In this document: one piece after another, positions 5,999-41,759 of the stretch | Position numbering within the stretch: the stretch's first letter is position 1 | Layout of the letters: the number at the start of each line of letters is the position of its first letter | Assembly (NCBI GenBank): GCA_003223215.1 | Contig: QHYH01000119.1 | Coordinates: 1-47,043, forward strand | DNA length: 47,043 bases | Direction of reading: 5' to 3' | Origin: Acidobacteriota bacterium | GTDB lineage: Bacteria; Acidobacteriota; Terriglobia; Acidiferrales; UBA7541 | Program-made: the position numbers and the translations under genes | The notes under the pieces: model-generated | Database searches by the model: none | What the model saw: the letters and a program-made list of their open reading frames with translations, nothing else | What the model was told of the DNA's origin: nothing

Positions 5999-6314
5999 TT
6001 TTCAGGTTACCGGTAGTCGGATTTTTGAGGTTCAGAAAACCGTCGCAAAGTTTGCAATGTGAGAATCAGGAGGTGTTGCAAGGGCCAGTTTGGGATCGAG
6101 AAATAGTCGGTTCTGGAATAGAGCGGGCCTCGTGATGGGCCTTGAACCCAAGCAATGACTGGGTCGAAAGTTAGACGCTGGTCTGGGGGTGAGAGCGGTA
6201 CAGGTTTTTAGCGTTTCTCCGTCTTGGGTTCGGCCGAAGGTGAACGGTGTCAGGCTGGGCCACGCTTCTCACGCCCTGCGAGTCGGTTCTCCCCGTTTCC
6301 GCCGGAACACTCAA
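5999..6314. other. Intergenic, nothing recognised
   Basis: This 316-base stretch lies between the HATPase gene and the small membrane protein. I see no gene. The last bases (from 6291) form the leader that is repeated at 6550. Confidence 0.4.
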
Positions 6315-31200: not shown

Positions 31201-33572
31201 CTATTCAGCTCGTAGGGCGGAAACAGGTTCCAGCAAAGCGGCTCGTCGAGCAGGCAAGTAACCGGCCGCTAGCCCAGCCATCAACAGCACGCCAAGGCAA
31301 GCAAGGGCAGTGATTGGATCCTGCGGCTCCACTCCGAAGAGCATGCTCTTGAGCACGCGGGTACATACAAACGCGAGCGGCAAACCCACAATCGCTCCCG
31401 CCGCGACAAGCGTGAGCGTTTCGCGCACAATCATTCCCAGAACGTTGGCCGGCGTGGCCCCTAGTATCGCAGTCAAAACCAGCGCAAGCGAGCCAAAAAA
31501 ACTGGCCAGAATCGCCATCATGCGGTCTGGACGCTGCGCCAGCGACAACCGCTCAGCCAGTGTGGTCACGTCACGGACGGGAAAGTGCGGATTGAGCGCG
31601 CGGACTTCGGCCCGCACTCGATCCGTCATCAATTTCGGGTTTCCTCTTGTGCGCACATGCAGGACCACGTTGAGTGACGTTGCCCACTCATCTTGCAATA
31701 AGGGCAGGTAAAAAAAAGGCCCGGCAGCGTTCTTCAAGAATATGTTTCTCGTGTCCGCCGCCACGCCGATGACTTCGTACTTAAACGTGGACTTTTCGCC
31801 TTCAGCGCCCAGGTGGCGGCCAAGCGGGTTTTGCGACGGGAAATATTGCTTCGCGAATGCCTCATTAATGATCACGACTTTGGGCGCGCCTGCGGCGTCG
31901 CGCGGCGAAAATTCGCGCCCCTGGACCAGGAGGATTCTCGCAGTAGAAAAGAAACCTGGCCCCACCACGTTGAACCCGGCCATCTGTCCCTTCTCAGGCG
32001 GCTGCCCTTCGACCCAAACCGATCTAAAATGGCCGCCCGACCCGAACGCGAAGTCCCAGCCCAGGGCAGTGGACACCACGCCCGGCACGCGCTGGACGCG
32101 CTCTACAAGCTCCTGATACACCAACAGCGGATATGCCTGCTGATACTCCCGTGGGCTCAGCCCAATCCTCATGACCAGCATGTTTTCTACGGGCATGCCG
32201 GGGTGCACTGCGGTCAATTTAGTGAAGCTTCGCGCCAATAAGCCTGCTCCTGTAAGCAGCAGCACCGATGCGGCCACCTGAAGTACGATGAGCCCCTTGG
32301 CCAAAACTGGCCGCGATACGCGGGCACCGCTTGCCTCACTTTTCAACAAGGGCAGGACGTCCGCATTCGTGGCATGCAGCGCAGGCGCAAGACCAAAGAG
32401 CAGCAGAGTGACAATCGCCGCGGCCGCACTGAATGCCAGAACGTGGGCGTTGAGCGTAAAGTGGATTGCTTGGCGGGCTTCATCGTCCAGCAGCAGGACG
32501 ACCAGCGCGCGTTGCATCCAGAAAGCAAGGGCAATTCCGGCCACAGCCGCCAGGCCCGAAAGCAAGACGCTCTCCGTGAGAAGCTGCCGTACCAATCGGC
32601 CCCGGCTCGCTCCCAATGTCAGCCGAACCCCGATCTCAGGCGTCCTGGCGCTAAATCGCGCAAGCAGCACGTTGGCGATGTTCACGCAGGCGATAAGCAG
32701 GACTGCGCCGGAAAGCAGCATCAGGGTTTGCAGCGAAGCCGTATACGAGTCGAGTGCATACCCCAGACCTCTATCCCCACGCGTCAAGACCGCACGCTGC
32801 GTCGATATGTCTTCGCGGTCGCTCTCTCGATAGTTCGCCAAGCCTGGACGCATCGATTCCAGAGCGTGCTGCAAAGCGACTTCAGCCTCCCCCTGTGCCT
32901 GCTTGTCGCTGACACCTGGCTTGAGTCTTACTGTGCCCCAAACATTTGCGAACTGAATGGGATTATCGAGAGGAATGGTGATATCTGGCGAAACGCCCTC
33001 ATCCGTGCCGAAGAATGCCGGCGGCGTCACGCCAATGACTTCCGTCGGGACGCCACTTAAGTTAATGGTCTTGCCGACGGCCGGACCGCTGCCAAAGCGC
33101 CTGGCCCAAAACGAATAGCTGAGCACCGCAACGCGTTGGCGGTTCCTCTCATCCGGCTCGTCAATGGTCCGTCCAAGGAAACGGCGAACCCGAGAGTCGA
33201 ATAGTAGCCGCCTGACACCATCTGCACCAAAACACGGTCAATATCTCCGCCCGTGTCAAAATTCAATTGCTCTCGAAAGAATCCGAAGACCCCGGAAAAG
33301 GATTGCGGCTCCTTGCGCAACTCATTGAAAAACTCAGAGGGAATATTGGACATCTCGACGCCCGAGCGCGTCACCACCTCGACGGTCCGCAAGCTCCCGG
33401 GGTCATGCACGGGAAGGGTTTGCAATAACGCGGTATCAAGCAGGCTGAAAATGGCGGCGTTCGCGCCAATCCCGATGGCCAGAGTGATCACGGCGACGCA
33501 AGCCACCATGGGCGTGGCGGCGAATTGCCGCCAACTATAACGGAGGTCCCGTACGCAATCGCGAAGAACCAT
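31201..33572 (-). pseudogene. ADOP-type MacB/FtsX permease, one frameshift
   Basis: From the ATG at 33572 the first frame reads RDCVRDLRYSWRQFAATPMV and LAIGIGANAAIFSLLD. It breaks at about 33185-33193, where one base seems missing; the next frame continues FLGRTIDEPDER...RVAVLSYSFWARRFGSGPAVG through the rest of the periplasmic domain and two FtsX blocks to VSALRAE. Restored, it is a normal permease of about 790 residues, like those at 15267 and 18821. No PadR gene precedes it. The break may be real decay or a sequencing error. Confidence 0.85.
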
Positions 33573-33980
33573 TGCTTGCTTCGTCACCGACGGGTTCGTA
33601 GCTACTCCACTCGCACCAAACCGTGTCCTAAACCAATTGTAAACACGATCGGGCCGCAACCGCGACGACCTTCGTACTATAAGGAACTTTGTCCAGCAAT
33701 GCCGTCGGTGACACAACTCTCATTTCTTCGGTCGCGATACGCTTAGCGCGGATGAAGGCACGAGGAACCCCTTCGTCCCGGTCGCTACGAGTTGCTTGTA
33801 GGCCTCGGCCTCACCGGCGCTTTCTGGCCCCTTGCGCGTCGGCCTAAACGCGCCGCCTACGGCGTCGCGGGCCTCCGCGGACCCGCAAGAGTTAAATGCC
33901 TTTGAATGCAGGCAAGTAGACGCAGGCTATCATCCTCACTTTGGCAACAACAAAGAGTCCTCGAACGGGTTTATAGGAAT
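33573..33980. other. Divergent intergenic region, nothing recognised
   Basis: This is 408 bases between the frameshifted permease and the 33981 gene. Open frames on both strands have no features. GC-rich stretches (33780-33890) lack long inverted repeats. Confidence 0.4.
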
Positions 33981-35477
33981 ATGGAATTTAGGGGTCTAGT
34001 ACCGTGCCTTGCGAATTGGCGAAAGGAGCGGCTCGTCGTCAAGAGGGCACCTGCTAAGGGGTTGTTCTCGCTTGCACTGACCTTGGGGCTTGCTTGCCTG
34101 ACGTGTCCGCACGCCCGGGGCGACGTGGGAATCGTACTTAACGAGTCGATGGATTCGAGCGTGGACCGAATCTCAGGTACGGGACACAGCGCTGTGTATT
34201 TTTCGCGAATTTGTGCGGAGTCGCCCGTGCGATTGAGGTTGTGCCGTCCGAATGAAAATGGCTCGGTGATGAGCACTTACATCAACATCGGGGAGGATCA
34301 GAGGTTCGAGTGGAACATCGTGCCCCTCAATATTTACCTTTATGGAGTGGAGGATCCCCGGTTTCGCGCACTTTTCGGGTCTTACAGGGTCAAGACTTTA
34401 TTGGAGGAAAGATACCGGACGAAATATCTGGCCGGGTATTGCGATGGCCCGCCATGCTCGACAAGTTACAAGGCGGAATGGCGAGAGATGGTTGCGGCAA
34501 CGCTCATCCGCAGCGTGTACATTTTCGTGATGGATACGACGGTCGAGCAGGATAAGGAACTGATCTCGCAGTTTAATGCCTCGCGCAATGAAAATCACTT
34601 TAACGGAATCACCCGGAACTGTGCGGATTTCACGAAGCGTGTGATCAATACCTATTTCCCGCACGCAGCCACCACTGACTACATCAACGACTTCGGGATG
34701 ACCAGCCCGAAGGCCATTGCGCGGTCGTTCGTTCGCTATGCCGTCCGGAACCCGAAATCCAACCTGCGAGTGCTGCACTTTGCTCAAGTGCCGGGCACCA
34801 TTAAGAGAAGCAATGAGGTTCGATCCGGAACAGAGCAGTTGTACCGTTCCGGGAAACTGCTCATTCCCATGCTGATTTTTGCGGGTTACGGAGTGCCGGC
34901 CGTGGCGGCCTCCTACCTTCTAACAGGCCGATTCAATCCCGAGCGCGAGTTCGAAAAGCATCCTGCTGAAGAGGAGAATCGTCGTGACGCGACGGAACCT
35001 GTGAAGACTCAGGAGGACCAAGCCCAGATCATTGGCACCCGGGCAGAATGGAAACGATATCGGCAGGCGCTGGACTCTCTATTGCAGGAAACAGGAGAAG
35101 CGAAATTCATCGGGGAGCAGGGAGACTTCCGTCGTTTTTTCAAGCATCTGAACAAGCTGGGCACACCTCGAGTGGACGCCGACGGAGCGTTGTGGATGGA
35201 GATTCCCGGCAAGAGTAAAGCTCTCAATGTGGGATTGAGCGCGAACAACATTCTCGAGCGGAGTTCGAACACGCAATTGGCGTACTCCTTGCTCCTCTGC
35301 CGCGCCAATGGCGTCTTGAAAAGCCCGAAGCACAGCCGAGAGACGATGCCGGAATTTGAAAGGGATTGGGAACTCCTGCAGCGGGCGCGTGTGAAAAACG
35401 CGTTGGTCGTCGCAGGAGATCGCACGCCAGACAAAGACATCCTTAGCACGGATGCTTCCACCGGTGGCAAGGATTGA
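33981..35477 (+). CDS. Secreted conserved protein with His...Cys pair, possible papain-like fold
   Basis: The ATG at 33981 (AGGA three bases before) gives 498 residues, with a signal segment at about 24-45 (GLFSLALTLGLACLTC); starts nearer that segment are possible. The conserved part (60-320) includes GTGHSAVYFSRIC (His69), YINIGEDQRFEWN, WREMVAATLIRSVY and NGITRNCADFTKRVINTYFP (Cys214). A His followed at a distance by an NCxDF cysteine is the order seen in permuted NlpC/P60 or LRAT-like enzymes, so a cysteine hydrolase or acyltransferase is a reasonable guess. The rest (330-498) is charged and unrecognised. I know the family only as an acidobacterial hypothetical. Confidence 0.65.
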   Translation: MEFRGLVPCLANWRKERLVVKRAPAKGLFSLALTLGLACLTCPHARGDVGIVLNESMDSSVDRISGTGHSAVYFSRICAESPVRLRLCRPNENGSVMSTYINIGEDQRFEWNIVPLNIYLYGVEDPRFRALFGSYRVKTLLEERYRTKYLAGYCDGPPCSTSYKAEWREMVAATLIRSVYIFVMDTTVEQDKELISQFNASRNENHFNGITRNCADFTKRVINTYFPHAATTDYINDFGMTSPKAIARSFVRYAVRNPKSNLRVLHFAQVPGTIKRSNEVRSGTEQLYRSGKLLIPMLIFAGYGVPAVAASYLLTGRFNPEREFEKHPAEEENRRDATEPVKTQEDQAQIIGTRAEWKRYRQALDSLLQETGEAKFIGEQGDFRRFFKHLNKLGTPRVDADGALWMEIPGKSKALNVGLSANNILERSSNTQLAYSLLLCRANGVLKSPKHSRETMPEFERDWELLQRARVKNALVVAGDRTPDKDILSTDASTGGKD

Positions 35478-35603: not shown

Positions 35604-36377
35604 TCAAATCCCCAAAACAGGACTGCTCGTTTCAGCCGATGCAGTTCCGGTCGGTGAGGGGAGTTTTGAACGGATCAAGGATTCCACTTGATTCCAGACG
35701 TTCGGGTCGCATTCGATCTCGATGTGCGACTTCATGAAGAGGCGGCCGAACCAGGGATAGTTTGGGCAACTAACTGGATGAGCTTTATAGTCAAAACGAA
35801 AATTTCCGATGATTTGTGTGTGCGTGGCATCGGCCGCAAGAATTTCGGGCCGCCCGCGTAGAAGTCCATTTGACTGGTAGAAGTTGGCTGCCTCCCTGAC
35901 GTTAGCAGGGATGAGCAAGTCATTTTGCTCGCGCTTCGTGATGCTGTCCACTTGGATGGTAAGCAGCACCGGGATGCCATCTTTCTCTAGCTCTCGCGCG
36001 AGAGTAACGGTTTCGGAAGCTCCCCAACTATGCCCGTATATGATGATGCGCGCTTGCTGTTTTTCTTGGGCCGACAGGGAACCCGTATTGTGGATATCGA
36101 GAAGTCGCAGGATCTGCTGGTGGGCTTTCTCCCGTCGCTGATTCTCAAAAACTTCCACGTGGACGCCGAAGGGATAATCCTGGCGGAGACGCGTAGCAAG
36201 CTGGACCTCGCTGTGGACCGCATTGTCGTGTTTGACGAAACCACCGACAAATCCGATAACAATAACGGGACGCCCCGCCGGCGGTTCATCCGCGGAGGCG
36301 GAGGGCGTGGGAATCATTGCGCCGAAAGCCAGGAGCAAAGAAAGAAGTGACCCGGGGAAACGCCTATTGCTCGGCAT
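35604..36377 (-). CDS. Secreted alpha/beta-hydrolase-like protein with EF-hand-like loop
   Basis: The ATG at 36377 gives 257 residues and a signal peptide (GSLLSLLLAFGAMIPTPSAS). The strand-turn VIVIGFVGGFVKHDNAVHSE and the elbow IIIYGHSWGASE (Ser117) fit a lipase-like hydrolase; Asp144 and His218 or His186 are candidates for the rest of the triad. A segment at residues 94-105 (DIHNTGSLSAQE) has the spacing of a calcium-binding EF-hand loop, partly degenerate. The substrate is unknown. The open frame extends to 36620, but that part overlaps repeat DNA. Confidence 0.68.
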   Translation of the reverse strand: MPSNRRFPGSLLSLLLAFGAMIPTPSASADEPPAGRPVIVIGFVGGFVKHDNAVHSEVQLATRLRQDYPFGVHVEVFENQRREKAHQQILRLLDIHNTGSLSAQEKQQARIIIYGHSWGASETVTLARELEKDGIPVLLTIQVDSITKREQNDLLIPANVREAANFYQSNGLLRGRPEILAADATHTQIIGNFRFDYKAHPVSCPNYPWFGRLFMKSHIEIECDPNVWNQVESLIRSKLPSPTGTASAETSSPVLGI

Positions 36378-36500
36378 GGGTCGTGCCTTTTCTGAGGACT
36401 TAGTGATGATAGCAGAAAGCGGGTTCGTTGGCGTGAACGTGGAACGATTCCAGTGGACCGTACCCAAGCTTGTGGCTGGCGAATTGTTGTTTTGCTTCGG

Positions 36501-36545
36501 TGACATCGCGTTGAACCTTGACACCGTACCAATTCGCCAGGGACA
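36501..36545. repeat. Dispersed 45-bp repeat, copy 1
   Basis: These 45 bases match 41715-41759 in the same orientation with about three differences; the core GTTGAACCTTGACACCGT is identical. The reverse strand reads SLANWYGVKVQRDVTEAKQQ in an open frame running about 36400-36610. The repeat may thus be part of a decayed gene or insertion element; its family is not recognised. Confidence 0.7.
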
Positions 36546-41605: not shown

Positions 41606-41714
41606 CGGTTCGCACATGACCAACGAGCGGTGCCCACGTGGAACTCCTGAGGAAGCGCTTTCATGGTATTTGCTGATCCCGCCGCAGCCTTGCCTGTCGT
41701 TCGGTGTAACCATG

Positions 41715-41759
41715 TGCCATTGCGTTGAACCTTGACACCGTATCAATTCGCCAGGGACA
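41715..41759. repeat. Dispersed 45-bp repeat, copy 2
   Basis: This copy matches 36501-36545 with about three differences. It lies directly at the point where the NmrA-like gene is cut off at its 5' side, so it marks a recombination or insertion breakpoint. A TTG inside it could start a chimeric reading frame into the gene fragment. Confidence 0.7.

Follow-up and report, generated by a model that had tools for sequence, protein, structure and literature searches.

The question raised by this locus is what an apparently exported protein, in which a conserved histidine is followed at a distance by a conserved cysteine, does in the cell envelope of an acidobacterium. The window, i.e. the whole stretch of 47,043 nucleotides that was analysed, carries on its forward strand a coding sequence of 498 amino acids (33981..35477), delimited from the open reading frame and its homologues; an in-frame ATG lies upstream at 33906 and, if used as start, would lengthen the product to 523 amino acids. 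Residues 27-46 (34059..34118) form a hydrophobic stretch, GLFSLALTLGLACLTC, followed by ARG|DV, or by ARA|DV in some homologues. From hydropathy and the N-termini of homologues this was judged, by eye and without a predictor, to be a signal peptide of the Sec/SPase I type, in keeping with the signal-bearing protein proposed in a preliminary description of the locus. The conserved core common to the aligned members comprises residues 47-320 (34119..34940), and residues 321-498 (34941..35474), recognised by comparison of homologues, make up a C-terminal extension, which occurs in some forms of the family only. Towards the end of the core, residues 291-314 (34851..34922) constitute a hydrophobic segment, placed after the catalytic part and detected by hydropathy in 46/46 members, which is a candidate for membrane association. 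The best 19-residue hydropathy averages 1.60 over the members (range 1.07-2.19) and 25/46 of them reach 1.6, so that a true membrane span is no more than possible. All of these features, as well as the codons given below, lie on the forward strand.

Both candidate catalytic residues proved to be invariant. His69 (codon 34185..34187), the candidate base, in the motif GTGHSAVY, and Cys214 (codon 34620..34622), the candidate nucleophile, in TRNCADF, are each found in 61/61 aligned Acidobacteriota homologue cores, and likewise in 46/46 cores of a smaller alignment (A1), which bears out the conservation that had been suspected from the single sequence. His69 is the sole invariant histidine of the 61-core alignment, and its only invariant cysteines are Cys214 and a close pair, Cys78 (34212..34214) and Cys88 (34242..34244), which, judging from the alignment, probably form a disulphide. 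Other residues invariant in the 61 cores include Trp111, Trp167, Arg177, Asn203 and Asn213, while polar candidates for the third residue of a triad are E92 (61/61), D191 (60/61) and N203 (61/61). Left out of the 61 rows were the homologue L012, the fragments L022 (of genome G015) and L023 (of G032), a locus of G221 that is divided between two frames, and rows duplicating a locus in the set; L012, of genome G017, contains an in-frame TAG and is read in two frames, which may reflect a pseudogene, recoding or an assembly error. Within the window, the pattern GH[ST]x[VIL][YF]...NC[AT], with 80-180 residues between its halves and composed after the family had been seen, occurs in 1/159 stop-to-stop frames of at least 100 residues, namely that of the secreted His/Cys protein. 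The order of the two residues, His69 before Cys214, is that of permuted papain-like or permuted NlpC/P60 (PPNE) enzymes, and to this extent, as a matter of order and fold aside, the permuted arrangement proposed earlier holds.

The secreted His/Cys family was found in 16/61 genomes, i.e. the window's own, where one copy was found, and 60 relatives, and in 41/396 sampled Acidobacteriota genomes, distributed over 13/211 genera; the carrier genomes of both sets together number 55. The broad homologue search covered Acidobacteriota, and elsewhere patterns derived from the query were run over genome contigs, yielding six loci, all titled Acidobacteria, Terriglobia or Terriglobales. The nearest named records are contigs of 'Acidobacteria bacterium isolate gp2', at 76-78% identity. 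Among viral contigs, 39 stretches fitted the patterns and none was a relative, and plasmids and phages gave no match to the family.

Three architectures, for which the names short, mid and long are coined here, can be distinguished. The short form consists of the core and a variable tail of 24 to 161 residues, the mid form is represented by four members (L018, L019, L020 and L162), and the long form corresponds to the clade of the window, with an extension of 166-203 residues; the C-terminal extension is thus a feature of the long and mid forms. In a tree of the 61 cores, the 13 long forms group together (92/96), as do the four mid forms (93/94). The long-form row of G131, a genome from another family, sits within the long clade, which suggests transfer between lineages. 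A profile of the extension (A4) matched 3/297 phylum genomes, each time at the C-terminus of a member of the secreted His/Cys family, in a search that scored at most 11 candidates per genome and could miss weak parallels; in Pfam, the extension gave six weak matches, each in 1/16 members. On these grounds, the C-terminal extension pointed out in the preliminary description is real.

Among the families compared by profile, the nearest was DUF4105/Lnb_N (PF13387; Lnb is the lipoprotein N-acyltransferase of Bacteroides), represented by an alignment of 14 Acidobacteriota sequences. When the 61-row core was compared with it in hhalign, 61 columns aligned around the cysteine with a probability of 49% and a score of 37.9, a value reached in 0/40 column shuffles (at most 26.8). 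The same core scored 16.8 against the neighbouring hydrolase described below, 16.8 against Lnt, 14.7 against its own C-terminal extension and 12.0 against C92. The 46-row core reached a score of 35.2 and a probability of 34%, with 0/60 shuffles as high, and an untrimmed set-up gave a probability of only 20%. The 46-row core was also compared with DUF4105 subsets of 11 rows (probability 3.9%, score 25.9, 0/60 shuffles as high) and three rows (1.9%, 24.9, 1/60 shuffles as high). The aligned columns run from the strand before the cysteine into the helix after it and hold both cysteines in register, FNGITRNCADF in the secreted protein against YNAITSNCTTN in DUF4105. The two families share the His-then-Cys order and a strand-helix-[FY]N..T.NC pattern around the cysteine. 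The His half of the core did not align with the DUF4105 profile. On these alignments, we read the similarity as real but local, and not as a sign of membership.

Several features set the secreted family apart from DUF4105/Lnb_N. The window protein has no match to Pfam Lnb_N (gathering score 22.2 bits) at E<=1, and a weak subthreshold match appears in 2/46 cores (best E 0.012), fewer than the 3/46 matched by Flu_B_NS1, surely by chance. The spacing between His and Cys is 138-146 residues, against 101-108 in the 12 of 14 DUF4105 rows that could be measured, and the secreted family has the Cys78/Cys88 pair and the hydrophobic segment after the core. Permuted structures are described as carrying a signature tyrosine 7 to 27 residues before the cysteine (PMC3142127). 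Across the 61 cores, no tyrosine is at least 97% conserved in the 68 residues before Cys214, and the site needs a fold to be fixed; seven residues before the cysteine, Phe is found in 55/61 and Tyr in 6/61, a further difference from DUF4105.

Within the NlpC/P60 cluster, permuted members are described as belonging mainly to C97, C92 and LRAT (PMC10318531). LRAT (PF04970) had no Pfam match in the 46 members at E<=1, nor any at E<=0.001 in 267 phylum genomes. A 13-row C92 alignment was matched neither by the secreted family nor by DUF4105 and is therefore a blunt yardstick, which cannot rank one against the other. The window protein matched zero NCBIfam models, and Pfam models only beneath their cut-offs; among the subthreshold Pfam matches of the 46 members, Peptidase_C97 (21/46) and Lnb_N (2/46) are both of the permuted papain-like kind, which speaks for the acyl-enzyme reading given below. 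In PHROGs and PADLOC nothing was found for the core at E<=1, and a profile search of the PDB with the 46-core alignment gave an irrelevant best match (E 0.67). In the open-access literature no paper joining DUF4105 with Acidobacteria was found, an absence which is weak evidence, and among the matches listed for acidobacterial lipoprotein N-acyltransferases and NlpC no title concerned the secreted His/Cys family.

Structure models contributed little. AlphaFold2, given seven sequences in each run, reached a pLDDT of 33.3 for the mature protein and 32.3 for the core. At this low confidence (pLDDT 32-33), both models show a strand followed by two helices, the second of which (mature residues 166-179) begins two residues ahead of the cysteine at 168; such a helix start would be as expected of the cysteine helix of a papain-like enzyme, and little weight is attached to it. 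A Foldseek search of the second model (pLDDT 32.3) against the PDB returned 36 matches at E<=10 and none at E<=0.001. Many of them were to UCH-L1, which is a papain-like enzyme, with TM scores of 0.10-0.13 and E values of 0.54 or worse, and at such values they constitute no evidence.

Downstream of the secreted protein, on the reverse strand of the window, lies a secreted-looking gene resembling alpha/beta-hydrolases (35604..36380, with a probable start at 36380), which has a GHSWG serine and an invariant Asp and His. The known long-form loci number 14, i.e. the 13 of the tree and L012, and the hydrolase is the next gene downstream, in either orientation, in 13/13 of those with downstream sequence; the fourteenth, L004, stops at a contig edge, and its genome (G026) has a hydrolase on another contig. 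The two genes are convergent in six loci (the window, L002, L003, L005, L010 and L012) and on the same strand in seven (L006, L007, L026, L079, L080, L081 and L082), and the distance to the conserved part is at most 291 nt in the 12 loci measured. That the neighbour has been kept through a change of orientation suggests a functional link. This pairing of genes in long-form loci is new in this analysis.

The hydrolase gene is absent from 12 short-form regions (L085-L095 and L097, with flanks of 2.5 to 9 kb) and from four mid-form regions, some of them short (L084, L162, L170 and L171), and the genome G015, which is 63% complete and holds a broken fragment of the family, gave no hydrolase match. 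Several genomes also contain hydrolase relatives at other sites, with no secreted His/Cys neighbour. In an alignment of 13 neighbours and 13 such relatives, from which fragments and a few others were left out, Ser81, Asp108 and His182 (numbering of the aligned part) are each conserved in 26/26 sequences. Pfam gave the hydrolase a subthreshold match to Thioesterase only, and the PDB search a subthreshold match to surfactin thioesterase. A survey of 23 loci revealed no other neighbour of equal constancy: a frame of 593 amino acids recurs in five loci at scattered distances, one of 248 amino acids in four short-form loci, and the remaining recurrent frames overlap one of the two genes. If the hydrolase frame is read longer, its N-terminal part, before 36380, has matches on several further contigs of the same genome, and the region upstream of the hydrolase therefore probably contains a dispersed repeat. 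A direct repeat of 46 nt, 93% alike, was also observed at positions 36500-36545 and 41714-41759 of the window.

A second neighbour was encountered among mid forms. The genomes G001 and G003 carry an Lnb_N gene immediately 5' of their mid-form homologue and codirectional with it, the gene of G001 matching in two pieces and containing X; these genomes are near relatives, and the two adjacencies may represent one event. In the mid-form carrier G142, Lnb_N is located on a separate contig, and it is missing from G004. At E<=0.001, Lnb_N was found in 4/54 carriers (G015 not included), three of them above the cut-off, and was missing from 50/54 and from the window's own genome. A general link with Lnb_N was rejected: in the phylum samples the gene occurs in 2/41 carriers and 14/355 other genomes, i.e. 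with no enrichment, and it adjoins the homologue in G001 and G003 only. Equally rejected was the idea of a substitute for a missing Lnt. Lnt (LNT_N, PF20154) is present in 27/27 carriers searched, out of 55, and there is accordingly no gap in lipoprotein acylation to fill; this, too, distinguishes the secreted family from DUF4105/Lnb_N.

Some observations concern other parts of the window and the phylum. A match to the Rfam family CyVA-1 RNA (RF02965) lies at 6192-6268 on the forward strand (48.1 bits, gathering score 41.4), and no other Rfam family reached its gathering score in the window, where ARAGORN found no tRNA. On the reverse strand, the overlapping frames 31201-33126 and 33057-33716 appear to be one gene for an FtsX/MacB-type permease (family judged by eye) split by a frame change. 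In the acidobacteriotal locus L072, the forward frame 1-1716 encodes an RHS-like protein, again judged by eye, whose C-terminus, WGHAVIK...NCAHY, shows a His/Cys pattern of the permuted NlpC/P60 kind and is possibly a toxin-type domain.

The reading that we favour, with a probability of roughly 0.55 for the mechanism in full, is that of a secreted, permuted papain-like acyl-enzyme acting on envelope lipids or lipoproteins. The protein would be exported by Sec and held at the membrane face by its conserved hydrophobic segment, and its core, presumed to be related to DUF4105/Lnb, would work as an acyl-enzyme domain of the permuted papain-like (NlpC/P60-like) kind. With His69 as the base that deprotonates it, Cys214 would attack an acyl group bound as ester or amide in a lipid or lipoprotein of the envelope. 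The resulting acyl-thioester would then hand its acyl chain over to water or to an acceptor, either an amine or an alcohol. The adjoining secreted serine hydrolase may cooperate in the long-form lineage and could supply, trim or remove acyl chains. A lipid or lipoprotein is put forward as the most likely substrate because permuted relatives bind or act on lipids (PMC3142127, PMC12994826, PMC7387801): permuted members are described as having a hydrophobic pocket, in which YiiX held a fatty acid (PMC3142127), and Tox-Act1 as a phospholipase whose sister clade DUF4105 was identified as Lnb (PMC12994826). Most likely, Cys214 moves or removes fatty acyl chains in the cell envelope of this soil bacterium.

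The preliminary description had placed the cutting of peptidoglycan and the transfer of acyl groups side by side as equals. Acyl chemistry is now favoured by the permuted order, the similarity to Lnb_N, the hydrophobic segment and the neighbours. An endopeptidase or amidase that used this Cys-His pair to cleave stem-peptide bonds would also be secreted-looking and would have a papain-like catalytic pair, and canonical NlpC/P60 enzymes are described as cutting peptidoglycan (PMC12994826). However, canonical NlpC/P60 has its cysteine N-terminal to the histidine, which is the reverse of the order found here; no Pfam wall-binding domain was detected in the 498 amino acids at E<=1; the best profile similarity, in a comparison without a canonical NlpC/P60 profile, was to DUF4105/Lnb_N; and there is a conserved hydrophobic segment C-terminal to the catalytic part. 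A periplasmic acyl-enzyme is thus preferred, and a peptidoglycan peptidase is considered unlikely. The permuted order itself is common to Peptidase_C97 (PPPDE; PF05903), in which PPPDE1 is reported to have Tyr101 seven residues before Cys108 (PMC3142127), and C97 is the commonest subthreshold Pfam match of the family (21/46 members, best E 0.0046). A permuted isopeptidase or protease of this type, acting on envelope proteins, nevertheless seems rather improbable: the window protein scores 13.1-14.5 bits, about half the gathering score of 29.2, and is not a member, no C97 was found at E<=0.001 in 267 phylum genomes, and C97 proteins are described as protein deconjugases, namely deubiquitinases and deSUMOylases (PMC10318531).

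The description of Tox-Act1 as a permuted NlpC/P60 phospholipase in a sister clade of DUF4105 (PMC12994826) could also point to a contact-dependent or secreted antibacterial lipid toxin, with the neighbouring gene serving for protection or release, and the occurrence of the two-gene module in G131, of another family but inside the long-form clade, would be in line with this. The N-terminal signal-like segment is ordinary, though, the sole clear recurrent neighbour is an enzyme with a signal-like segment of its own rather than an immunity-like membrane protein, and neither PADLOC nor PHROGs recognised the core; a toxin is accordingly very unlikely. Were the His/Cys pair structural, the protein would be a non-enzymatic envelope or lipid-binding factor. 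No activity is known, Phe occupies the position seven residues before the cysteine in 55/61, and the invariant Cys78 and Cys88 show that stability is under selection as well; a single invariant His, combined in 61/61 cores with a single invariant Cys that has no partner and stands in an NC motif, is hard to explain without catalysis, and little credence is given to this possibility.

The favoured acyl-enzyme can be set beside known systems by description. The enzymes of the Tox-Act1 and TseH clades likewise have a permuted His/Cys pair and act on the acyl chains of phospholipids, but are described as secretion-system effectors in toxin contexts (PMC12994826), whereas the window protein has a Sec-like signal segment. 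LnsA, an NlpC/P60 protein with an inferred permuted active site, needs a second protein for lipoprotein N-acylation, as encoded by the two-gene LnsAB system (PMC7387801); its partner LnsB is a CPBP-like membrane protein according to the same account, while here the partner gene encodes a secreted-looking serine hydrolase. As a more tentative and doubtful proposal, the two genes may represent a novel module of Acidobacteriota for the remodelling of envelope lipids, by which cells already equipped with Lnt would exchange the acyl chains of lipoproteins or of membrane lipids, using a permuted papain-like acyltransferase, sister to Lnb yet distinct from it, together with a dedicated secreted serine hydrolase.

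Lnb, LnsA and Tox-Act1 exemplify the growing recognition of permuted NlpC/P60 proteins as acyltransferases and phospholipases of bacteria. If the acyl reading is true, the secreted His/Cys family, present in 41/396 Acidobacteriota genomes, would extend such enzymes to soil bacteria, and the constant pairing with a hydrolase in one clade provides a directly testable two-enzyme hypothesis.
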